Shown here: positions 3-12,045 of the stretch, piece by piece | Numbering within the stretch: position 1 is the stretch's first letter | Layout of the letters: each line of letters begins with the position of its first letter | Assembly: GCA_017508345.1 (NCBI GenBank) | Contig: JAFVZD010000123.1 | Location: 1-12,045 of the forward strand | Length of the DNA: 12,045 nt | From: Clostridia bacterium | Lineage (GTDB): Bacteria; Bacillota_A; Clostridia; Christensenellales; UBA1242 | Direction: 5' to 3' | Position numbers and translations under genes: made by a program | Notes under the pieces: generated by a model | Database searches by the model: none | Seen by the model: the letters and a program-made list of their open reading frames with translations, nothing else | Told to the model about the DNA's origin: nothing

Positions 3-2408
3 AAAGACATTACTTGTAATACCGATCCAGTGGTTGGTAAAGTGTCTGAGACTACCACATTTAGCGGTGTGGTTTATGCTCCAGCATTGTCTGGTGCATT
101 CACAAAACACAAGGTTGACACAGACCATGTGATTTCAGACGATAAATTTGAAGAACTAATTGATACTACCTATAAATTATTCAATTTGCCAAAATCAACA
201 TCTACTACCTTTGACTTGTCCACATATCCTGAGATGAATGTTACTGTTGTGACAAAACTTAGTGATTTGGATACAGATTTGGATACAAGTATTAGTTCAA
301 CATCTCGCCGTTCTATACTACTTAATTTGACTAATAACACTGATAGCACTGATAGTACTGATAGCACTGATAGTACTGATAGCACTATCCAAGACTTTGG
401 TAAAGATAGACAACTTACACAATTTAGACGCGTGGTAGGTGTAGCAGGCACTACATTTACTGCTGGTGATATTACTATAGAGAATGCTAGTGATAAAGTA
501 GCATACTTTGATAGTATTGGCACAGGTGTGTTGTTATCCAATATCAATATCAACATCAATTCACTATGTATCGAGAATGCAGAGGAGAATGCAAATATTG
601 CAATATTGGTAGCAGAGAATAAAGGTGCAATATTCGGTTGCAGTGTAGGAGTTACTCCTGCAGTAAAGACTGCCACAGACGAATCCATAAAAGACTTTTC
701 TGCCAACCTTACCACCAATACTAATCCTAACAACACTGACGCTAGATTCAATAATACTATCAATGACTATGCTACCCAAGATGTGACTACTATTATCAAT
801 AAATCTGCCAACTCTATTAATCTAGCTACATTGTGTGCTACAAACTCAGGTACTATATCCACCTCACACATTTACGCAGATATCATATGTAATGAGGGTA
901 ACTCCAGCAATGTAGGACTACTTTCTGGTAAGTCTACCTCAGCATATATGATAAACAACTTTGTAATGGGTAGGATTACATATCTAAATCCTATTAGTAC
1001 AGATAAAGTCGGTGGAGTAGTTGGATCCATTAGTAATAGCATTATGGATACCTCTATATCCATAGTCAATATCTACCTATCTAGTGATGCTAGTGCTACT
1101 AATTCCGCTGCAGGATTGTTAGTAGGAGCCGAGAGTGGTACAAATACCTATTCAAATAATATTGCCAATAGTAGTATCTCTATCACCACCGAGCTCAATA
1201 CAACTGGGGTAGATGAAATACGCTCACTGACTACTGCAAAATTAAGTATGCAACAGACTACCTCGGCTATTATTGATAGCAATATTTGGCCTCAAGACAA
1301 AACCCCCAATATTTGGGCTCAAGACAAAACCATAAACTTTGGTTATCCATACTTAATACACAATATGCCTACTACATCTACTGGTGATGGTAGTGCTACT
1401 TCACCATTCCAGATTACTGAGGCAGAGCAATTTAGTATGCTAAATGACGATAGCACAGCTCAAATACTACTTGTTCGTGATGTTGTTTACTATGGTACTA
1501 GTTCACTAAATAATATCAACCGCTCACTCAATGGTAATGGCCATGTAATATTAGTAGATAAATTATCTAATGATGTTAACAATTACGCACTATTTGGTAC
1601 AATCAATGGTGTCACAGTATCCAACCTAGTAATACTGCACCACAAATCAATCTCTATTAGCGATGAGGCAATCATCAACTTTGGTGGACTAGCAATATCT
1701 GCTACAGATGGATCAACTATCAGCAATGTAGCAGTAGTGGGTATCAATAATGACTCTTACAACATAGAGTTTACCAATAGTGGTACTGATAGCATAATGG
1801 GTGGTCTGCTATCCAGCACTAGTGGTACAGTTAGTATTAATAATTGTTGGACAGACTTGGATATTCAGGCATCCAAGGGTAAATTGGGTGGTATGATAGG
1901 TACTACATCTAGCGGTACTACTATCAAGGAGAGTTTTGTAGCATCATCATTATCATTTATTGTCACTGATGAGAATAATAGTGTCACTGATGAGAATAAT
2001 AGTGGCACTGATGAGAATAATAGTGGCACTGGTGAGAATAATCTCCTAGGTAGAATAGTAGGAGAGGCCGATACATCTACTAAATTAGATAGTACCTACT
2101 ACTATGAGTACAACACTGATCCTAGTGAATTTGCAGGCGCACCTCTCACAGGTAATACTACTATTTACGAGCTAAAATCATCGGAGTTTTTAGTAGCAGC
2201 CGCTAAGGTAAGTAATTCATACCTATACAATCCTAGTGAGGGTCGATATTATTATACTGATAGGAATGGTTATAGTTTTAGCGAAACTGCTAATAGCATT
2301 CCTCAATGGTTGGCTGATGATGATGGATCCTTATTCACAATAGGTAATGGTGGTACAGTACCATACTTGATCAATACGACACCTGCTGACTACATCGCAA
2401 TTCCCTAA
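3..2408 (+). CDS. Large secreted beta-helix/GLUG-like repeat protein, 5' truncated by window edge
   Basis: The frame is open from base 3 with no stop, so the true start and any signal peptide lie upstream; the GTG at 30 has no Shine-Dalgarno site and is unlikely to be the start. About 800 residues are visible. They are rich in Ser, Thr, Asn and Asp, almost free of Cys, and built of repeated short strands of the type VGGVVGSISNS, FGGLAISATDGSTISN and LGGMIGTTSSGTTIKES, each followed by a variable strand. This resembles GLUG-type beta-helix surface proteins. The block GDGSATSPFQITEAEQFSML (from about base 1384) matches the usual entry signature of such domains, and GYPYLI (near 1342) and VPYLI near the C-terminus match their usual closing signature. 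The gene contains three in-frame tandem repeats. No LPXTG sorting signal or C-terminal membrane anchor is seen. A cell-surface or extracellular adhesin-like role is inferred; the exact function is unknown. Confidence 0.8.
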   Translation, partial: KDITCNTDPVVGKVSETTTFSGVVYAPALSGAFTKHKVDTDHVISDDKFEELIDTTYKLFNLPKSTSTTFDLSTYPEMNVTVVTKLSDLDTDLDTSISSTSRRSILLNLTNNTDSTDSTDSTDSTDSTIQDFGKDRQLTQFRRVVGVAGTTFTAGDITIENASDKVAYFDSIGTGVLLSNINININSLCIENAEENANIAILVAENKGAIFGCSVGVTPAVKTATDESIKDFSANLTTNTNPNNTDARFNNTINDYATQDVTTIINKSANSINLATLCATNSGTISTSHIYADIICNEGNSSNVGLLSGKSTSAYMINNFVMGRITYLNPISTDKVGGVVGSISNSIMDTSISIVNIYLSSDASATNSAAGLLVGAESGTNTYSNNIANSSISITTELNTTGVDEIRSLTTAKLSMQQTTSAIIDSNIWPQDKTPNIWAQDKTINFGYPYLIHNMPTTSTGDGSATSPFQITEAEQFSMLNDDSTAQILLVRDVVYYGTSSLNNINRSLNGNGHVILVDKLSNDVNNYALFGTINGVTVSNLVILHHKSISISDEAIINFGGLAISATDGSTISNVAVVGINNDSYNIEFTNSGTDSIMGGLLSSTSGTVSINNCWTDLDIQASKGKLGGMIGTTSSGTTIKESFVASSLSFIVTDENNSVTDENNSGTDENNSGTGENNLLGRIVGEADTSTKLDSTYYYEYNTDPSEFAGAPLTGNTTIYELKSSEFLVAAAKVSNSYLYNPSEGRYYYTDRNGYSFSETANSIPQWLADDDGSLFTIGNGGTVPYLINTTPADYIAIP
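339..386 (+). repeat. 9-bp in-frame tandem repeat (Thr-Asp-Ser)
   Basis: Five consecutive units of ACTGATAGY plus a final ACT. The last base alternates C, T, C, T, C, giving a higher-order 18-bp period. It encodes a Thr-Asp-Ser run that forms a flexible linker between the N-terminal part and the first beta-helix-like region. Unit length is a multiple of three, so copy-number change would keep the frame. Confidence 0.95.
1281..1334 (+). repeat. 27-bp tandem duplication (NIWxQDKTx)
   Basis: Two adjacent 27-base units, 1281-1307 and 1308-1334. They agree at 23 of the first 24 bases and differ in the last three. They encode NIWPQDKTP and NIWAQDKTI. The copies lie just before the GYPYLI closing signature of the first repeat domain, so the second copy may be a recent duplication of that domain's last strand. 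Confidence 0.9.
1962..2042 (+). repeat. 21-bp in-frame tandem repeat (xTDENNS), about 4 copies
   Basis: Units begin at 1962, 1983, 2004 and 2025; the last is partial. The consensus is GKCACTGATGAGAATAATAGT. They encode VTDENNS, VTDENNS, GTDENNS and GTGENN. Copies 1 and 2 are identical and later copies diverge slightly, which fits slippage or recent expansion. The encoded segment is acidic and hydrophilic and sits between two Gly-rich beta repeats as a probable exposed loop. Confidence 0.95.
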
Positions 2409-2504: not shown

Positions 2505-3188
2505 TTATTCAAATCCCAGTACCCACGCCAATATGTCATTCAATACACTGCCATCTGGCACAATATTCTCCACCACACCTTGTACACAATCCATATTTAT
2601 AGGGCCAAAATATCGTGAGTCCTTGCTATTATCTCTATTATCACCCATGCAAAATATCATATTTTCAGGCAAAATTATCTCTCCATTGACAGGCTCAATC
2701 TTTTGTGCCCAATGTGTTTGTTGTTGGTAATTTTTGTAATAATGATAACTCTCACTATCTGCTATATAATCCTCGTTTAGTTTTGTACCATTCAGATACA
2801 CGTGAGTCTCGTGCGTGCCCTCATCATATGTTATCCTAATCCTATCCCCCGGCATCGCTATCACGCGCTTGATGAGTAGAGTAGCATTCTTGTCCGTTAT
2901 ACCTGTATATTGCGAGTCTATGCTAGATACATCCACTATTACAATATCACCATGACTAGGAGTAGCATACTTATTGGCTATCACGATATCCCTATCCGCC
3001 GCACTATCGTTATTTAGAGTTGGCTGCATACTAGCACCATGTACAGGCTTGGCATAATGCGTAGCCAAATACACAAATATTACAGTAATTACCGCAACCA
3101 GTAGCACAAATAACACATTCTTTACTATACTCTTGGCTCTGCTCTCCGGCTTATATGGATTGGTAATAGTCTCAAACTCTCTATACAT
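2505..3188 (-). CDS. lepB: Type I signal peptidase (Ser/Lys, bacterial S26A family)
   Basis: Membrane-bound peptidase that removes signal peptides from Sec-exported proteins on the outer face of the membrane. The 227 residues comprise a short cytosolic N-terminus, one membrane segment at about 24-43, then the extracytoplasmic catalytic domain. All signature boxes are present: GASMQPTL with nucleophile Ser53, LLIKRVIAMPGD with general base Lys107, and GDNRDNSKDSR at 182-192. Length and the single transmembrane segment fit Gram-positive SipS-type enzymes. The ATG start is supported by a GGGAGG ribosome site on the minus strand (about 3195-3200) and a promoter just upstream. It is transcribed alone, since a terminator separates it from the pyrophosphatase gene. 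It is the likely processing enzyme for ordinary secreted proteins, in contrast to the SipW-like enzyme at 9373. Confidence 0.96.
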   Translation of the reverse strand: MYREFETITNPYKPESRAKSIVKNVLFVLLVAVITVIFVYLATHYAKPVHGASMQPTLNNDSAADRDIVIANKYATPSHGDIVIVDVSSIDSQYTGITDKNATLLIKRVIAMPGDRIRITYDEGTHETHVYLNGTKLNEDYIADSESYHYYKNYQQQTHWAQKIEPVNGEIILPENMIFCMGDNRDNSKDSRYFGPINMDCVQGVVENIVPDGSVLNDILAWVLGFE

Positions 3189-4063: not shown

Positions 4064-4092
4064 ATACAGTAATATTTATTGAGTGTATCGTT

Positions 4093-4098
4093 AGGAGG
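4093..4098 (+). promoter_or_regulatory. Ribosome binding site that fixes the start of the giant gene
   Basis: A perfect AGGAGG four bases before the ATG at 4103. It rules out the in-frame TTG at 4079, which has no ribosome site and falls within about 10 bases of the predicted transcription start. Confidence 0.85.
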
Positions 4099-4102
4099 AT
4101 AT

Positions 4103-7100
4103 ATGGCAAGAAATAATGTATTTACTTCTGCAATGGGCAGTGTAGGTAGCGCTATTGGTGCGGGGTCTCGCGGTGTGCTTAGATACCTACGCACCGCTTA
4201 CAATGATGGTGTGTATTTTTATGCAGACCAGACAGGTGCGAGTAATCCAAAGAGAGTCCGTGCCGCGGATACTTTATCTACTAGCAAGTCTTGGCTAGAG
4301 AGGGCTATCGCAGCCCCTACTATTGATGCTGTAGAGATAGTGACCAATTTGCCTCTCAATGCTCTACACAAGGCAGCAGATGTGCGCGACGGATATAGGC
4401 GTCTCAGAGTAGATGTGCGTGATGGTCGCAGGCATACTTTTGCGTCCACTCGCCCTATGCTAATGGTTATCACTGAGCAGAGTATGGTACACAAGCACAA
4501 TGACAGGACTAGTTTTGTATCTCGCTTCCACATCAACCAACGCACTCGTATAGTTACTAGAGCATACCAGCGCGAGCATGGCCACATACTATTGAATGAT
4601 AATGCAGACCAAGAGTTGGCTCTTAGTCACATTCGTGCCATGGGTGCAGGTAGTATGCGTAATGTACATATCTCATCCAATTATGGTGCTTGTATCCGCC
4701 ACTATGATGACCAAGGTAAATTGATAGATAGTGACAAGCAAGACCACAAATTGACAAAAGAGCAGACACTAGCATTGCGTGAGGCATTGGGCCAAGATGT
4801 ACAGGGCGAGGATAGTATGCTAATGCTTACCGCTCATGATGGCGATGGTCAATGTATTGTATCCGCTACTCCTAATGCTAGTGATACTATACAGTTAATG
4901 AAATTCAAGCACAACTCTCGTCAGCGTTCTCCACGATTTGAGTCTAGGAATGAGCGCGAGTTTGAGATGAATGCCAACAATGGTAGTTTCTATAATATCG
5001 TAGTAGAGCCACAGACCCTATCCCAGACACCGCGTTTGGACAATATGCTGACTCTATACAAGATTGCCCAGTCCTTCGCTACCCAGCGTGAGGTCAAGAG
5101 GCAAGAATTAGAGCGTAATACTGCACTCACTCCTGACGATATCAAGGCACAATTAGAGCAGTTTGATGCTGACCACCACTTTGACCTAGAGGTGCAATTT
5201 GGTAGAGATGGTGCATTGGTATTCACCCCAAAGGGTGTGTCCAAGCGTCAAGCCACCAAGGACATCCAGTCTTATCTCCATGTAGCAGACCAAGATGTAG
5301 GTATGCGTATCACTAGTGTCGCTGATGTGATAGAGAGTTTCAATCTAACCAAAGTATTTGATATGGTACACGACTTGCAGACTGCCTATGCCGCGGATAC
5401 TAGCATTGACAGGTCCGTGGTGAGTTTGGAGGAATACACTACTCAATATATGCTTGCTAGTCTCTATCAGCCTGACCCAGTAGTATTCCAGCAATCATTA
5501 GCCAATGACTTTGATGAGCGCGGACGCCCAGATAGCGAGCTCGCAGAGATTAGTCAGCTCCGTTATCAGTATTTGGATCAATTGCGCCGTTCAAAAGAGG
5601 TTAGTGACGCTATGGTAGGTCAGGCTATGAGTAGCCTAATCAATTCCCGCCTCATGACACTGGCTATGCAAGATACAGACCAAGAGTTAGAGCAGTTGAA
5701 AGCTTACCTAGAGGCTCATGGCAATGCTCAACAGACTAGGGCATACCAAGACAAATTGAATCAATACAAGGCCAAGTCAATCTACCGTGATTATGCTCAG
5801 AGGCACATGATGGAGACATTCAGGCAATTCTTTGATATTCCTGCATCCGTAGGTATTACCCGTCCACTACACAGAGATACTATCGTAGACCAAGTAATGG
5901 AAATGCAGGACAGATATGACAACACCTTGGCTACCTCTCCTAATGTGGATCTACAGGCTATGCATGACAAACGCCAAGAGTTCTTTAATACACTACAGAC
6001 ATACCTCAATTCTGATGTCCCTAATAGGAATGATATCCTGAATGCTATCGTATCTAGCGCTGCTACTGTTGCTGATGGTAGCCAGAGCCAAATGGATGCT
6101 TGGGATGCGTTGTTGCAGACAATGAATGCAAACACACTAGCACATCAACAAGCACAACAGGATTTGGTTCATCAGCAACAACTATTGGCTATAGATAAAA
6201 TATCCGAAATGACCGTAACCGAGGCAGTCAATGCGTTGCAGAATAATGTGGCGATGTTGCTACCTACTATCCGTCAAAACTACGAGGATGGTACACCTAG
6301 TACGGTCAACGACCTAGAGATGCTAGATGCCAATATGAAGAAAGTAGAAGAACTCTACGACATATTTATGCAGAGTAATGACCTAAATAATGTACAAAAG
6401 TTGTTACTATCCAAACAAATCACTACTTGGCGTAATTCACACCAGATTATACAGACCAGTAGATATGACAAGGGGCTGGACGCTCTCAAATTCCAAGAGA
6501 AATACGCAGAGACATCTTTCTCAGTATTGGACGATATAGTATCCACCCAAGGTGCTGACCCTCTAGCTATACTGGATTATATAGAGACAGAGGTGGCTAG
6601 GATTATACCTAATCACTTGCCTGAGATTATGCCTACCAATGTCGCAGATGTCCCTGGTGTTCCTACGCGTAAGGAATGGACCAACCGCATACAAGCCATG
6701 TCAGACTTGTATAATGCAGTTATCAAGGATAATGTATCATCCAGAGGATTCAGTTGTATGGATATGCATTACCGCCAGGCAATGGCAAAATACCTAGACA
6801 AACGATTGGAAATCATCAAGACAAATACCATAGCGGATGCTCAACCATCCAAGAGTGCGGAATACGCTGCAGAATTAAAAAAATATCTTGATGCAACCCA
6901 AGAAGCATTAAAGACTCGTAATGAATACGATAATGCTGATGCTAACGAAAAAGCAATCCTACTTACTCAGTATATGAATGATTTGGGTAGTCGCCTAGAT
7001 AATCTACCTGCCAACTCTCCTAACCGCAAGGCTATGATAGCAGATTACAGGAATTACATTGTAGAATTTCAACGCATAAAGAATGAGTACTATATCAACA

Positions 7101-9124
7101 ATGCAGTAACTCCAGAGGAGATGACTCGTGATCACTCATATACCGAGATGATCAATGCACATATTGCTGTACATACTATGGATGAGTATGTGCCTAGCAA
7201 TGACCCTGCATCCACATATGGTATTCAGGAGATTAGTGCAGAGCGCGCCAACAGGGCACAACGCTACCTAGATGCACAGCGTAATTTCACAAAAGAAAAG
7301 ATTGAGAGTATTAGTTCTCAACAGCCAAATAATACCAACAATATCTTTATCATTCTACAAAATGCCAATTCACCTACATCTTTCGATTTTGCGTCCATTG
7401 ACAGTTTGCCAATAGAATTGCAAGAAAAGATACAGCAAGCAAAAGAGTTGAAAGAGGAGCAAAATAGCCAAGACGATAGCGATGAATACAACCTGCCTAA
7501 CGGTCGCAAATTAGTACAATTGCCTATCTCAGACAAAGACAAAGCCGTAATCAAACAAGAATTATCCAAGATTGCAGAGTTTGACAAAGAACTAACCAGA
7601 CTTGGCTTTGCATATTTTGCAAAAGATGCCGACCGTATCTCTATCAAAAACGAAGAAGAAGAAAAACTCAAACAAATTGTACGCGCATTCAACAATATCA
7701 AGTCTTTTGTAGACAAATCTATAGCAAAAGAATACCGAGATAGCAATATGGCAAAGTATACTTTGAATGCCTTAATGGAGTTGCATGGTAACATTGGTGG
7801 TACTATTAGACGCAAAGAGAAACCTCACACTCAGACTTGGGAAGAATTCAAGAATAGTAAGATTGAGGAACGCAGAAAGTTGCAAGACTATATCACTGAG
7901 GCACTAGACCGCGGTGTAGAGGTGGATCGTAATGGTGCTATTTATATCAAAGACCAAATGATTGCCGGAGAACGCGACTATCAAAAAGATATGAAAGCAA
8001 GAATGTCCGATAAGGTAGCCAAAAAGGTAAAACCGAACGAATTCATTATTGATGTATGTGAGCAAAAGATTGATGAGGCAAAGCGAGTTTTGGATGGCGA
8101 ATCCAAGCGTAATTACTCCAAATCTAGACAGGATATTCACAAAAAGATTGCAGAGAACCAAGAGAAAATCTATACTCAAATTCTAGACCGTATCAGTCAT
8201 GGTGATGATATATCTTGGTCACTTGACGAAGACCGCAAAGCAGTCGTAGTTACATTTGAGCCAAAAGATGATGACACCAAGAGAACTACTTACAAAAAGT
8301 ATTTTTATGAGCACGAACTCAAAGAATTTGATGTAGACATCGCTGAATTCAGTAGGACTGTAATCCAGCTGGAAAAATCTAAGTTAGAAAAAGCCCAAGC
8401 AGATGAAGCGGCAAAAGAAGAAGAGGCACAAAATAAAGAGAAAGCAGATAAAGAAGCCAAAGAAAAAGCAATACTCGCTGAAAAAGAGGAAAAAGAAAAA
8501 TTAGCACAGCTCCAAAAAGATGCAGATGCAGCCAAAAAAGCAAAAGAAGAAGCAGAAAAGCAAAGAAAGGCCGAAGCTGCACAGCGAGCAAAAGAAGAGA
8601 AAAAGCGTCAAGAGGAACTCCGCAAGGCAGAAAAAGAACAAGAGACCAACAAACTCAAGGAAAATATAGCTACCCTTAACGAGGGAATTGACAAATCCAT
8701 AGAAGACCTAAAGAATACCAAAGACGCAGACAAACGAAGTCAAATAACCAATAACTTGCAAATATTAAAAGACCTCAAAAAGGATATGGAAAAAGAACTC
8801 AAAGAAATCCAAGAATATATCCTTAGCGAAGAGAAAATTGAGAATGCAGAGACCACACACAATAGTATGCAAGATATGCTAACCAATTCTCATAAGGAGA
8901 ACCCACCTACAACCAAAACATGGTATGAGATGGCAGAAGAACAGTATAATAATGCGGGTTATGGTGAAGACAACGAAAATGATGAATCATTGAAACAATT
9001 GCTCTCAGAAGGGAAATGGACTAGTGATGGTAAGGTAGGTCCATTGGGGGATACTCTTACACCAGTACAAGAAGAAAGCAAAAAGAATAAAAGCACAAAT
9101 ACCAATGCTGCAGGAAGAAAGTGA
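4103..9124 (+). CDS. 1673-residue cytosolic coiled-coil protein of unknown function
   Basis: I do not recognise a family. No signal peptide, membrane segment, P-loop or other catalytic motif is visible, so a cytosolic structural or scaffold role is the cautious reading. Residues 1 to about 330 are mixed, Arg- and His-rich, with several predicted strands. From about 330 to 1230 the chain is largely helical, with many Gln, Asp and Met. From about 1230 to 1415 it is basic, with a small strand segment. From about 1420 to 1585 it is a long Lys/Glu/Ala/Gln-rich coiled coil. The last 90 residues are polar and probably disordered, ending in a basic AAGRK. The start is set by the AGGAGG site. The gene has its own promoter and terminator and reads in the same direction as the SipW-like operon that follows. 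Codon choice shifts markedly along the gene, from AAG/GAG to AAA/GAA. The reading frame is secure; function is unknown. Confidence 0.92.
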   Translation: MARNNVFTSAMGSVGSAIGAGSRGVLRYLRTAYNDGVYFYADQTGASNPKRVRAADTLSTSKSWLERAIAAPTIDAVEIVTNLPLNALHKAADVRDGYRRLRVDVRDGRRHTFASTRPMLMVITEQSMVHKHNDRTSFVSRFHINQRTRIVTRAYQREHGHILLNDNADQELALSHIRAMGAGSMRNVHISSNYGACIRHYDDQGKLIDSDKQDHKLTKEQTLALREALGQDVQGEDSMLMLTAHDGDGQCIVSATPNASDTIQLMKFKHNSRQRSPRFESRNEREFEMNANNGSFYNIVVEPQTLSQTPRLDNMLTLYKIAQSFATQREVKRQELERNTALTPDDIKAQLEQFDADHHFDLEVQFGRDGALVFTPKGVSKRQATKDIQSYLHVADQDVGMRITSVADVIESFNLTKVFDMVHDLQTAYAADTSIDRSVVSLEEYTTQYMLASLYQPDPVVFQQSLANDFDERGRPDSELAEISQLRYQYLDQLRRSKEVSDAMVGQAMSSLINSRLMTLAMQDTDQELEQLKAYLEAHGNAQQTRAYQDKLNQYKAKSIYRDYAQRHMMETFRQFFDIPASVGITRPLHRDTIVDQVMEMQDRYDNTLATSPNVDLQAMHDKRQEFFNTLQTYLNSDVPNRNDILNAIVSSAATVADGSQSQMDAWDALLQTMNANTLAHQQAQQDLVHQQQLLAIDKISEMTVTEAVNALQNNVAMLLPTIRQNYEDGTPSTVNDLEMLDANMKKVEELYDIFMQSNDLNNVQKLLLSKQITTWRNSHQIIQTSRYDKGLDALKFQEKYAETSFSVLDDIVSTQGADPLAILDYIETEVARIIPNHLPEIMPTNVADVPGVPTRKEWTNRIQAMSDLYNAVIKDNVSSRGFSCMDMHYRQAMAKYLDKRLEIIKTNTIADAQPSKSAEYAAELKKYLDATQEALKTRNEYDNADANEKAILLTQYMNDLGSRLDNLPANSPNRKAMIADYRNYIVEFQRIKNEYYINNAVTPEEMTRDHSYTEMINAHIAVHTMDEYVPSNDPASTYGIQEISAERANRAQRYLDAQRNFTKEKIESISSQQPNNTNNIFIILQNANSPTSFDFASIDSLPIELQEKIQQAKELKEEQNSQDDSDEYNLPNGRKLVQLPISDKDKAVIKQELSKIAEFDKELTRLGFAYFAKDADRISIKNEEEEKLKQIVRAFNNIKSFVDKSIAKEYRDSNMAKYTLNALMELHGNIGGTIRRKEKPHTQTWEEFKNSKIEERRKLQDYITEALDRGVEVDRNGAIYIKDQMIAGERDYQKDMKARMSDKVAKKVKPNEFIIDVCEQKIDEAKRVLDGESKRNYSKSRQDIHKKIAENQEKIYTQILDRISHGDDISWSLDEDRKAVVVTFEPKDDDTKRTTYKKYFYEHELKEFDVDIAEFSRTVIQLEKSKLEKAQADEAAKEEEAQNKEKADKEAKEKAILAEKEEKEKLAQLQKDADAAKKAKEEAEKQRKAEAAQRAKEEKKRQEELRKAEKEQETNKLKENIATLNEGIDKSIEDLKNTKDADKRSQITNNLQILKDLKKDMEKELKEIQEYILSEEKIENAETTHNSMQDMLTNSHKENPPTTKTWYEMAEEQYNNAGYGEDNENDESLKQLLSEGKWTSDGKVGPLGDTLTPVQEESKKNKSTNTNAAGRK

Positions 9125-9309: not shown

Positions 9310-9338
9310 TTGAGTTTTTTGTATTAATTTGCTACAAT
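9310..9338 (+). promoter_or_regulatory. Promoter of the SipW-like operon
   Basis: -35 TTGAGT (9310-9315), a 17-base spacer and -10 TACAAT (9333-9338), preceded by an A/T-tract region that could act as an UP element. The predicted leader is about 28 bases and includes GGAGG at 9356-9360. That site is 12 bases from the ATG, longer than usual; an in-frame TAA at 9367 excludes any earlier start. Confidence 0.7.
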
Positions 9339-9372: not shown

Positions 9373-10278
9373 ATGTCTTCTTTTAGAAGTAAACAAAAAT
9401 TAACTATCCCAGATGCACCTCTGCTATCCAAACGCAACGAGATAGAGGAGGAGCAACCCGTAGTGGATAGTGTGGATGTCACATTTGACCCAAATAGTCC
9501 AAAGTCCGTGCTAAAGAATTCTATGATGCGCGAGGCTGCAGTTAGTCAAAATCTTAGCCAAAATACTATGAAAATGCGCAAATACAAGATTGACCAAATG
9601 GAGGATTTTGCTAACGAGTATGCCATATCTATATCCGAGACATCCTCTACATCCAATACATTAGGTATAATCAACACTACCTTGATCACTATCGCATTGG
9701 CTATATCACTATTAATGGTCTTTTGTATGTTATTCGGTATACGCACCTGCTCCGTGATTACGGATACTATGGAGCCCTCCATATCTAGCGGTAGCCTAGT
9801 AATAGTACGCGATATTGCACCAGCCGATATTGTCCAAGGTGATATAATTAGTTATACCAAACCTGATGGCAAGACATACATCCACAAAGTAGCCCGCATT
9901 GAGCAATCTACATCCGTACCGAATGAATATGTAATTACAGTGAATTGTGTTAATATTGATAAATACCCAAGTTTCCAAGAGGTAATTCGCTCTAGTATGG
10001 TCCAAGGTATCTATGTAATGCATATGCCTGCTGTAGGTGGATTATTCCTCTGGATACAGAATAATTGGATAATAGTACTGATTTTCTCTATTGCTATCAT
10101 TATGGGTATGACTATCACAAAGTATATTTTTGACAAGCAACACAATCGTGCCGTACTAGAGCGCTATATAGAGAAGCGTGACGCATTGGAGGTTAGACAC
10201 GAGCAAAGATACCTCAACTACAAGCGTCAACAAGATATTGAAGAACTAGATGATTTATTGAATACAAAAAGAGAATAG
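9373..10278 (+). CDS. sipW: SipW-like (ER/archaeal-type) signal peptidase with atypical active site
   Basis: A 301-residue member of the SipW branch of signal peptidase I, which matures filament proteins such as TasA. Topology: a hydrophilic cytosolic N-terminus of about 96 residues, membrane segment about 97-121, extracellular domain about 122-230, membrane segment about 231-251, and a charged helical cytosolic tail of about 50 residues. Family boxes are easily aligned: TDTMEPSISSGSLVIVRD (130-147), then VQGDIISYTKPDGKTYIHK with the general-base position His171, as expected for SipW rather than Lys. Two key positions differ. The nucleophile Ser of the SMEP box is Thr132 (ACT), and the usual GDxN is NCVN (191-194), replacing the conserved Asp with Cys. 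It may be a slow Thr-dependent peptidase or an inactive relative. Ordinary SipW is about 190 residues, so both cytosolic extensions are unusual. It is the first gene of a tight operon with its candidate substrates. Confidence 0.85.
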   Translation: MSSFRSKQKLTIPDAPLLSKRNEIEEEQPVVDSVDVTFDPNSPKSVLKNSMMREAAVSQNLSQNTMKMRKYKIDQMEDFANEYAISISETSSTSNTLGIINTTLITIALAISLLMVFCMLFGIRTCSVITDTMEPSISSGSLVIVRDIAPADIVQGDIISYTKPDGKTYIHKVARIEQSTSVPNEYVITVNCVNIDKYPSFQEVIRSSMVQGIYVMHMPAVGGLFLWIQNNWIIVLIFSIAIIMGMTITKYIFDKQHNRAVLERYIEKRDALEVRHEQRYLNYKRQQDIEELDDLLNTKRE

Positions 10279-10289: not shown

Positions 10290-11702
10290 TTGCTAACTAC
10301 AAAAAAACATAGTATAGCCCTAATAATTATTGTAATTATGCTGTCACTAATTAGTGTCGGCGGTATTTGCTATGCATATTTTACTCGTGTTAGCAACCAC
10401 TCTCACGATGGCGAGCCTGCCACCACCTCTACCCAAATTTATTCACTCACCGCCACTAGCGATAGCTATACCATAGGCACACCTTATACCCAGTCAATCT
10501 CTGCAGATGCCAACTCTGTCAATAATATAGCAATCCACAATTCTGGTGATTTGGCTGTGTATATGAGAGTAAATTTGATGGTGGTTACCGCTCAGGAGAA
10601 TGTACTAACACCACTAGGCAATGACTATTATGATACCACCATTTACCAAGATGACCTACCTATAATACACGATACCGATACATTTGATTATCATGGTTGG
10701 ACATTGGTAGAGAATGGTTATTATTACTACAATAGCATAGTTAGTCCGGGAGATTTTGTGCCTTTTGCAAGTGTCTCTCGTACCAACGCAAATGTCCAAG
10801 GTGCTACTATCAAGGTAGCAGTAGAGGTTGTCCAAGCCACCCCAGCCATTGCCAATCTGTGGCATCCTAGTATGACATGGAATACCAACGATCGCCTAGA
10901 CCACAATGGACAATTGTCATTAGATGGAGTAGACCTCAGCCCTCATTGGAGCGAAGGTGCCTCTGACAAGATAGTGCCAATCTACCCAAATGGTAATAAA
11001 TGGAAAACATTAACACCACAAGAGCGAGAGGACCAAAAATTGTTAGTACCACTCACACGAGGTACTACCACCGCACAGATAAACAATCTAGTAGGCGACA
11101 ACAACAATAGTTATCTGAGATTGTACAACGCTACCCGTAAATATATGATGTTTAATGTCAATTACAACATTATGCTCCAAGAATCCACCGATGGAATTGA
11201 TTACCATGATGTCACTGCACTTTGGGCTCAGGGTAATTACTTTGGTGATGTCAAACTCGAGTTGCAATTTGTGGATTCTACAAATTGGATAGATGTGAGG
11301 GCGGATGCTAGTAATCAATTCGTCAACGATACTGGTGCCGTATCTTATGTGTACAATAGATTGGTAAATCCCGGAGAAAGTATAGGTGCACTAGCATCTA
11401 CTGTCACACTCACTGGATTGGATGCTAATCTATTGGATGAAAATAATCAATACAACGGCAAATACTATGCCTTTAGAATCTATATTTCTATTACCGGTCT
11501 AGAGTCTACCGTGCTAGATGGCGAGGATACTGTCCAAAAAGCACTAGATACCACGGATGGTGCAGATGGATTTTTTGCAAAACAATTGTCCAAAGAATTT
11601 GATACCACCAAGCTAGATACACTACGCCAAAACCTCACTACTCAATACACTAGATGGTTGGACAAAATAGGTTTGCTAGACAATAGCGGAGGAGGTGAGT
11701 AA
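10290..11702 (+). CDS. TasA/camelysin-like surface protein with SipW-type signal peptide, two-domain
   Basis: The 470 residues begin with MLTTKKH, then a hydrophobic core (about 9-28) ending GGICYAYFTR. This matches the GG..YAYF(S/T) pattern of SipW-dependent signal peptides and suggests cleavage near CYA|YFT, around residue 30. The mature chain starts with a TasA/camelysin-like domain: IHNSGDLAVYMRVNL (82-96) and GYYYYNSIVSPGD (143-155) are typical motifs. A second, diverged copy seems to follow: LYNATRKYMMFNV (278-290) and YVYNRLVNPGES (353-364). The C-terminus is a helical stretch, FFAKQLSKEF onward, ending SGGGE. No sorting signal or membrane anchor is seen. It probably forms or decorates extracellular filaments. 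It starts from TTG with a good ribosome site 11 bases after the SipW-like gene, which implies co-transcription and processing by that enzyme. The exact role is inferred. Confidence 0.85.
   Translation: MLTTKKHSIALIIIVIMLSLISVGGICYAYFTRVSNHSHDGEPATTSTQIYSLTATSDSYTIGTPYTQSISADANSVNNIAIHNSGDLAVYMRVNLMVVTAQENVLTPLGNDYYDTTIYQDDLPIIHDTDTFDYHGWTLVENGYYYYNSIVSPGDFVPFASVSRTNANVQGATIKVAVEVVQATPAIANLWHPSMTWNTNDRLDHNGQLSLDGVDLSPHWSEGASDKIVPIYPNGNKWKTLTPQEREDQKLLVPLTRGTTTAQINNLVGDNNNSYLRLYNATRKYMMFNVNYNIMLQESTDGIDYHDVTALWAQGNYFGDVKLELQFVDSTNWIDVRADASNQFVNDTGAVSYVYNRLVNPGESIGALASTVTLTGLDANLLDENNQYNGKYYAFRIYISITGLESTVLDGEDTVQKALDTTDGADGFFAKQLSKEFDTTKLDTLRQNLTTQYTRWLDKIGLLDNSGGGE
11691..11695 (+). promoter_or_regulatory. 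Ribosome binding site of the last gene
   Basis: GGAGG (within GGAGGTGAG) overlaps the last codons of the preceding gene, eight bases before the ATG at 11704. The arrangement (stop and start one base apart) indicates translational coupling. Confidence 0.85.
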
Positions 11703-11703
11703 T

Positions 11704-12045
11704 ATGCGTGGAGCATTTAGGACAGGAATAGCTATGTTTGCTATTGCCATTCTATTGTGCGGTGCATTCATAGGTGTAGGTTATGCTACATTTACCTCAC
11801 ATCACCGAGGTGTAGCCAATATCACTATCAATTCATTAGGCAAGACGGATTTTGCTGTGACATCTACCACCAAATATTACCCGGGTTGCCAAGATGGTAG
11901 AGTAGAGATAGCTATCAAGTATGGTGTGTCCGATAGTGATCTACCTGTCAACATACAGGAAATTACACTGCAAAGTATAGAGATAGGTTACCAGTGGTTG
12001 CCTGACAAAATGGTCAATGCAGATGGTATCGTCACTCTGAGTGTC
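11704..12045 (+). CDS. Exported protein with SipW-type signal peptide, 3' truncated by window edge
   Basis: An open frame of 114 codons runs off the window. It starts MRGAFRTGIAMF, then a hydrophobic core (about 8-26) ending GVGYATFTSHHRG, which repeats the small-residue/YAxFT cleavage context of the preceding protein; cleavage is expected near GYA|TFT. The visible mature part (VANITINSLGKTDFAV, then alternating polar/hydrophobic residues such as GRVEIAIKYGVSD and QEITLQSIEIGYQWL) looks beta-rich. One Cys is visible, in YYPGCQDG. It is one base from the preceding stop, so it belongs to the same operon and is a likely second substrate of the SipW-like enzyme, for instance a minor subunit or anchoring partner (compare tapA in Bacillus). 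The family cannot be settled from the visible part. Confidence 0.82.
   Translation, partial: MRGAFRTGIAMFAIAILLCGAFIGVGYATFTSHHRGVANITINSLGKTDFAVTSTTKYYPGCQDGRVEIAIKYGVSDSDLPVNIQEITLQSIEIGYQWLPDKMVNADGIVTLSV

Follow-up and report, generated by a model that had tools for sequence, protein, structure and literature searches.

Does a signal peptidase homologue in which two of the three catalytic residues are changed still cut proteins, or is it kept for something else? The question is raised by a 12,045-nucleotide stretch from a Clostridia bacterium (contig JAFVZD010000123.1, assembly GCA_017508345.1; the whole stretch is called the window here), in which a gene for a SipW-type (S26B) signal peptidase homologue, below the window protein, is directly followed by two genes for TasA-like proteins. 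The original prediction, made from the letters alone, left a choice between a lineage with a Thr nucleophile and a pseudo-peptidase that binds signal peptides without cutting. The second option is supported, and it is strengthened by catalytically dead orthologues in related genomes. We consider it fairly probable that the protein has lost its protease activity, or nearly all of it, through the changes S132T, G192C and D193V, and that it is kept for a second, non-proteolytic job. The sequence basis of this reading is the set of catalytic changes, the intact frame, the conserved arms, the downstream TasA-like genes and, on a branch of their own, dead orthologues apparently under purifying selection.

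Catalytic residues and the pattern of change

The reading frame is intact, with zero internal stops. The nucleophile position within VITDTMEPSISSGSLVIV is occupied by Thr132 (ACT, 9766-9768), in place of the Ser that precedes Met in active enzymes, while the general-base histidine is kept as His171 (CAC, 9883-9885) and aligns with the His of those orthologues that carry both Ser and His (below, Ser/His orthologues). The third residue had been placed one position off, with Asn-Cys read for Gly-Asp and Cys192 at the Asp. In the ungapped alignment to the two closest relatives, P0001 (70% identical) and P0002 (69%), both metagenome-derived, ITVNCVNID in the window stands against ITMTGDNQD in both; Asn194 and Asp196 are invariant across the eight aligned rows, which places Cys192 opposite the Gly and Val193 opposite the catalytic Asp. 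The replacement is therefore Cys-Val for Gly-Asp, and Cys192 as a substitute for the Asp is rejected. Two of the three catalytic residues, Ser and Asp, are thus changed. The S26 fold is present: matches to SEC11, SipA and LexA fall on residues 121-220, and SEC11A was retrieved at E 4e-8 by profile A2. The TIGR02228 score is 44.7 bits, under the curated cut-off of 51.85 bits, and a single-sequence search of the PDB with the window protein gave weak transporter matches only.

The threonine was seen in this one sequence only. The protein database holds seven relatives at E <= 0.001, with the nucleophile box TDSMEP in P0001, TDSMET in P0002 and TNSMEP in P0003-P0007 (47-48% identical), and GDN in all seven. 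Since both close relatives have Ser and Gly-Asp, Thr/His/Cys is rejected as a feature of a clade, and the idea of a Thr-nucleophile lineage is unsupported. Among 32 other SipW-like frames, taken from related genomes, 28 have Ser at the nucleophile position and none has Thr; the four frames without Ser are two dead orthologues (L017 and L019), a degenerate second copy (L004) and a frame without the domain (L003). Thr is likewise absent from 17 further rows (12 Ser, 5 Asp), some of which are genes already among the 32. Phage records and IMG/VR gave no relative of the window protein, and a protein database search with residues 93-256 alone returned no match, not even P0001, and is uninformative on the frequency of Thr.

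It had also been argued that close homologues with Ser and Gly-Asp would mark this copy as an error or a decaying gene. The relatives do have both, but the full-length frame, the unchanged arms and the mostly conservative changes of the domain do not fit the conclusion. Counted at sites where P0001, P0002 and P0004 agree, changes found in the window protein only number 0 of 92 in the N-terminal arm, 2 of 28 in residues 93-120, 12 of 99 in the outside domain, 4 of 36 in residues 221-256 and 0 of 45 in the C-terminal arm (257-301), which gives 0 of 137 for the two putatively cytosolic arms together; changes private to P0001 and P0002 in the outside domain number one and two, respectively. In BLOSUM62, ten of the 12 domain changes score at least 0; the exceptions, with negative scores, are G192C and D193V. 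The fold of the outside domain thus looks kept while the active site is altered, and the changes in the catalytic box, as the sole negative scores, appear to be more than chance. By maximum likelihood, the window protein has a branch length of 0.70 in the domain, against 0.16 and 0.14 for P0001 and P0002, and in the arms one of 0.018 against 0.071 and 0.071. From its sequence, the gene does not look like a case of simple decay.

Dead orthologues at the same locus

A scan of genome contigs with the window protein gave one locus, L001 in genome G001. Orthologues were found by searching 309 genomes of the family of G001, a group of small-genome Clostridia; 396 genomes drawn from its order yielded only G001 itself at E <= 1e-20. 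The orthologues occupy one locus in 12 Ser/His genomes and eight dead genomes, with partly conserved gene order, and several contigs terminate near it. The gene names pyrophosphatase, rpsF, ssb, rpsR and TasA-like are those we presume from the sequences, and TasA-like matched no family model. The neighbourhood includes lepB and a gene of pyrophosphatase-like kind in 9 of the 12 Ser/His loci and 7 of the 8 dead loci. TasA-like genes follow directly in 11 of the 12 Ser/His loci, while all eight dead copies have a longer gene upstream and rpsF-ssb-rpsR directly downstream.

The eight dead orthologues lack the Ser, the His at its site and the Gly-Asp, with Asp, Glu or Lys at the nucleophile position. 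Glu and Lys are found in two full-length copies, L017 (G042) and L019 (G085), whose aligned boxes are without His or Gly-Asp. Five others of full length came from a second profile search (G002, G144, G154, G104 and G121) and another was found in G133, all six with Asp in the nucleophile column and Arg in the His column (read by eye for G133). In seven of the eight, the outside domain is without any His; that of G002 has one, at a different position. A ninth dead row is the database protein P0009, with Ala at the nucleophile, and a further database protein, P0008, is near-identical to L019 and represents 18 member sequences. The motif of the N-terminal arm is still recognisable in the dead orthologues, and the top fold match of a dead orthologue is SipA. 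The ratio of non-synonymous to synonymous change (dN/dS) is about 0.07 for one close dead pair and 0.06 in the dead domain; more distant pairs gave 0.16-0.40, rough values since dS is 1.2-1.5. The dead orthologues therefore look to be under purifying selection, in the one pair close enough for the test. The dead rows form a single group in the tree (99/97), so that they are probably one event sampled repeatedly and not eight independent ones; the midpoint root lies between dead and Ser/His rows, and the Ser and His of other SipWs suggest that the dead state is derived. The window protein clusters with P0001 and P0002 (100/99), within the Ser/His part of the tree, which makes its catalytic loss independent of the dead branch.

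That plausible substrates lie downstream was borne out, as two genes of a suitable kind directly follow the peptidase gene. TasA-like protein 1 has zero Pfam or NCBIfam matches and shares 33% identity with the corresponding protein of L001; Ala29, presumed to be the last residue before cleavage, is invariant in 13 of 13 aligned sequences. A profile of this protein matched 12 of 14 genomes and missed the dead G042 and G085. The window and those 12 genomes had supplied the sequences for the profile, which makes the 12 matches true by construction; the weight rests on its absence from six further genomes, all dead (0 of 8 dead genomes overall), and on the interval between sipW and rpsF, which holds no TasA-like gene in any of the eight dead loci. 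No match to TIGR04088, the model for SipW signal peptides, was found in G042 and G085, nor in G162 and G087 despite their TasA-like genes, so that this model is a weak test of absence. The absence of TasA-like genes tracks the fully dead active site, probably as one event. In one Ser/His genome (G087, L045) the SipW-like gene lies apart from the TasA1 gene, about 6.6 kb off and on the opposite strand.

A proposed second job and its alternatives

An intact gene despite the lost catalytic residues, together with dead orthologues under apparent selection, makes a further job, other than cutting, probable. Both arms would face the cytosol with the S26 domain outside, and the protein could serve as a membrane anchor or scaffold, perhaps partnered with the protein encoded upstream; signal-peptide binding may persist. 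The TasA-like proteins might then be cut by the signal peptidase I of the window, which has Ser and Lys boxes and could do so, or by a second SipW elsewhere, or be left membrane-anchored. The upstream protein of 1681 residues has zero Pfam matches of its own at E 0.1, and BLAST links it to L001_2 (E 7e-27) and to the proteins of about 580 residues encoded by relatives, which it much exceeds in length. The Cof-type HAD domain PF08282 is above cut-off in four of five upstream proteins of relatives tested, and the match starts at profile position 15-20 (L036:7272-9086, L040:7629-9368, L041:5596-7368 and L034:10796-12448), so that the first motif, which we take to carry the nucleophilic Asp of HAD enzymes, seems missing. 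The family is apparently one of pseudo-HADs adjoining a pseudo-peptidase. A HAD-like gene lies directly upstream in the window and in six Ser/His loci (G001, G068, G106, G169, G044 and G145), and weakly in G029. Among the dead copies, the upstream gene is HAD-like by profile or BLAST in G042, G085, G002, G104 and G121, with no such match by either in G144, G154 and G133.

Several observations weigh against a lost activity and a second job. The TasA-like genes remain in the window with the presumed cleavage-site Ala kept, and their absence from the rest of the dead genomes, which may be incomplete, is not firm. Apart from Thr132 itself, the nucleophile box is unaltered, and a Ser-to-Thr replacement is mild. 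Three Ser/His orthologues (L008, L011 and L012) have Ala at the catalytic Asp and keep Ser, His and TasA1, so that loss of the Asp alone need not mean death. The membrane parts are also longer-branched in the window protein (0.45 against 0.21 and 0.16), and the maximum-likelihood acceleration is unconfirmed by one-outgroup relative-rate counts in the domain (12 v 7, p 0.36; 15 v 8, p 0.21; not significant), as is any difference between domain and arms (p 0.07 and 0.19, not significant). Five Ser/His loci are without a HAD-like gene adjoining sipW, and we infer both that there is a second job and that the upstream protein is a partner.

Some of these observations would suit a working enzyme with a Thr nucleophile in a Thr-His dyad, in which the Asp is dispensable and both TasA-like proteins are still cut. 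His171 is kept and the nucleophile box otherwise unchanged, the Ala-for-Asp relatives offer a parallel, as does L013 with Glu at the Asp and Ser, His and TasA1 kept, and ten of the 12 domain changes are conservative. We regard such an enzyme as unlikely. Thr occurs in no other row of either set compared, the Gly of the Gly-Asp box is gone as well, and Ser, His and Asp are each reportedly critical in Bacillus subtilis SipW. Moreover, the three Ala-for-Asp relatives (in G162, G122 and G155) own another, canonical SipW and may themselves be weak or inactive. Neither they nor L013 have a HAD-like gene directly upstream.

Second canonical SipWs are common, being present in 8 of the 12 Ser/His genomes. 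The gene might accordingly be an early pseudogene, relieved of constraint lately when another peptidase took over and with its frame still unbroken; it is a single sequence, and its domain and transmembrane parts changed faster. The unchanged arms, the mostly conservative domain changes and the lack of any stop or frameshift argue otherwise, and we give this explanation a low probability, no higher than that of the Thr enzyme. In the other four Ser/His genomes, the second copy is degenerate (G001) or atypical (G087), or only one SipW was found (G016 and G029). The degenerate gene of G001 (L047:7443-8033) has TDVVSPAY for the Ser box and Tyr at the His, and the operon copy there is intact. A TIGR02228 scan of dead genomes gave no match in G042, G085 and G002, and weak matches to lepB in G104 and G121 and to the dead copy itself in G133. 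In G154 and G144 there is an atypical SipW-like protein of greater length that has Ser and His but no Gly-Asp, so that two of the eight dead genomes retain a possible Ser/His SipW-type enzyme. Such proteins, of about 390-430 residues with a long insert, lie at L088:1336-2502 (G154), L091:916-2193 (G144) and L057:2499-3752 (G087).

The outside domain, at 56% identity to P0001 and P0002 much further from them than the N-terminal arm (86-90%), could have come from a distant paralogue by gene conversion or fusion, but a tree of the domain alone keeps the window protein with these two (92.4/92), and a swap of this kind is improbable. Least credible is that the catalytic codons were misread in sequencing or assembly; although the sequence comes from one contig only, this would require three wrong codons in a domain with nine other window-only changes and an otherwise clean frame.

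Known systems and neighbouring genes

Like SipW (S26B; TIGR02228) and eukaryotic SEC11, the window protein has an S26 fold between two membrane helices, an SMEP-like box, the His and a position corresponding to the Gly-Asp box, and like bacterial SipW its gene adjoins TasA-like genes. It differs from both in the Thr for Ser, the Cys-Val for Gly-Asp, the long conserved arms and the TIGR02228 score below cut-off. For human Sec11A, PMC13385932 describes a catalytic triad with His, Asp and the Ser that is replaced by Ala in the structure. The nearest precedents for a protein of the proposed kind would be SipA of Streptococcus pyogenes and an activity-independent role of B. subtilis SipW. According to PMC4049620, SipA, which folds like a signal peptidase but has Asp and Gly where Ser and Lys would be expected, is essential for pilus polymerisation, and further inactive signal peptidases are predicted in Gram-positive genomes. 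As in SipA, which is encoded with surface-fibre genes, the signal peptidase fold lacks catalytic residues here (the His still being present in the window protein), and 6 of the 9 dead rows share its Asp at the nucleophile; SipA as portrayed there is a P-type protein of a sortase-pilus cluster, whereas the window protein keeps the His, has Thr and adjoins TasA-like genes. No sortase or pilin family was among the Pfam or NCBIfam matches of the six window proteins scanned, and the window ends at 12045. B. subtilis SipW is reportedly needed for biofilm on solid surfaces independently of its peptidase activity (Terra et al. 2012, as cited in PMC5817204). The non-peptidase role proposed here would resemble that of this bifunctional protein which, as presented there, is an active enzyme, unlike the two separate branches here in which catalytic residues were lost and the gene was kept. 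Among the matches listed from the openly licensed literature (ten of 38 and ten of 35, respectively), no title pointed to a Thr nucleophile in signal peptidases or to a SipW pseudoprotease. For inactive signal peptidases or pseudoenzymes, that literature gave a single paper, off topic, and for SEC11 residues none; other reports may exist.

A broader and more tentative reading, which we rate somewhat short of even, is that in this lineage of small-genome Clostridia the general job of SipW-type proteins is structural or regulatory, exerted at the membrane through the cytosolic arms and perhaps with the upstream pseudo-HAD. Cutting of TasA-like proteins would then be a dispensable extra, the active site being erased and the protein kept where fibre genes are absent, and the window would represent an active site on its way out while the fibre genes remain. 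The locus would offer a natural series from active through Asp-less and Thr/His/Val to fully dead, with the absence of TasA-like genes tracking the dead state. Such a series would allow the two jobs of SipW, cutting and the other one, to be told apart and supply ready-made test proteins for functions beyond cutting.

Table 1. Features of the window, with positions in the 12,045-nucleotide stretch
Feature	Position	Strand	Basis or remark
P-type signal peptidase I	2505..3188	-	Ser box GASMQPTL, Lys box KRVIAMPGD; TIGR02227 105.4 bits, PF10502 119.9 bits
Possible partner of 1681 aa; one region akin to a degenerate Cof-type HAD family, and a long C-terminal portion	4079..9124	+	BLAST
Promoter-like site upstream of peptidase gene	9310..9338	+	TTGAGT-17-TACAAT, TG before; 3 sites against 1.8 (standard deviation 1.3) in shuffles, weak
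SipW-type (S26B) signal peptidase homologue, catalytic residues altered	9373..10278	+	301 aa
Residues 1-92, conserved N-terminal arm, putatively cytosolic	9373..9648	+	0/92 window-only changes
Residues 93-120, predicted first transmembrane helix	9649..9732	+	hydrophobic; model helix 92-120
Residues 121-220, S26 domain, putatively outward-facing	9733..10032	+	model strands E123-127 to E210-218
Cys192 (TGT, 9946-9948) replacing Gly; Val193 (GTT, 9949-9951) replacing catalytic Asp	9946..9951	+	
Residues 221-301, second transmembrane helix and C-terminal cytosolic helix (predicted topology)	10033..10275	+	model helix 232-300
TasA-like protein 1, candidate substrate, 470 aa	10290..11702	+	named by position, size and signal-peptide form
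TasA-like protein 2, candidate substrate, truncated by window end	11695..12045	+	27% to L001_5, E 4e-7; signal peptide GVGYATFT

The features are collected in Table 1. The peptidase gene is separated by 248 bp from the 1681-residue gene and by 11 bp from the first TasA-like gene. The first gene of the window (3-2408) encodes a product with short Asp-Ser-Thr and Glu-Asn-Asn repeats, and very long proteins related to it are found beyond lepB in six loci (L034, L035, L094, L097, L098 and L099).
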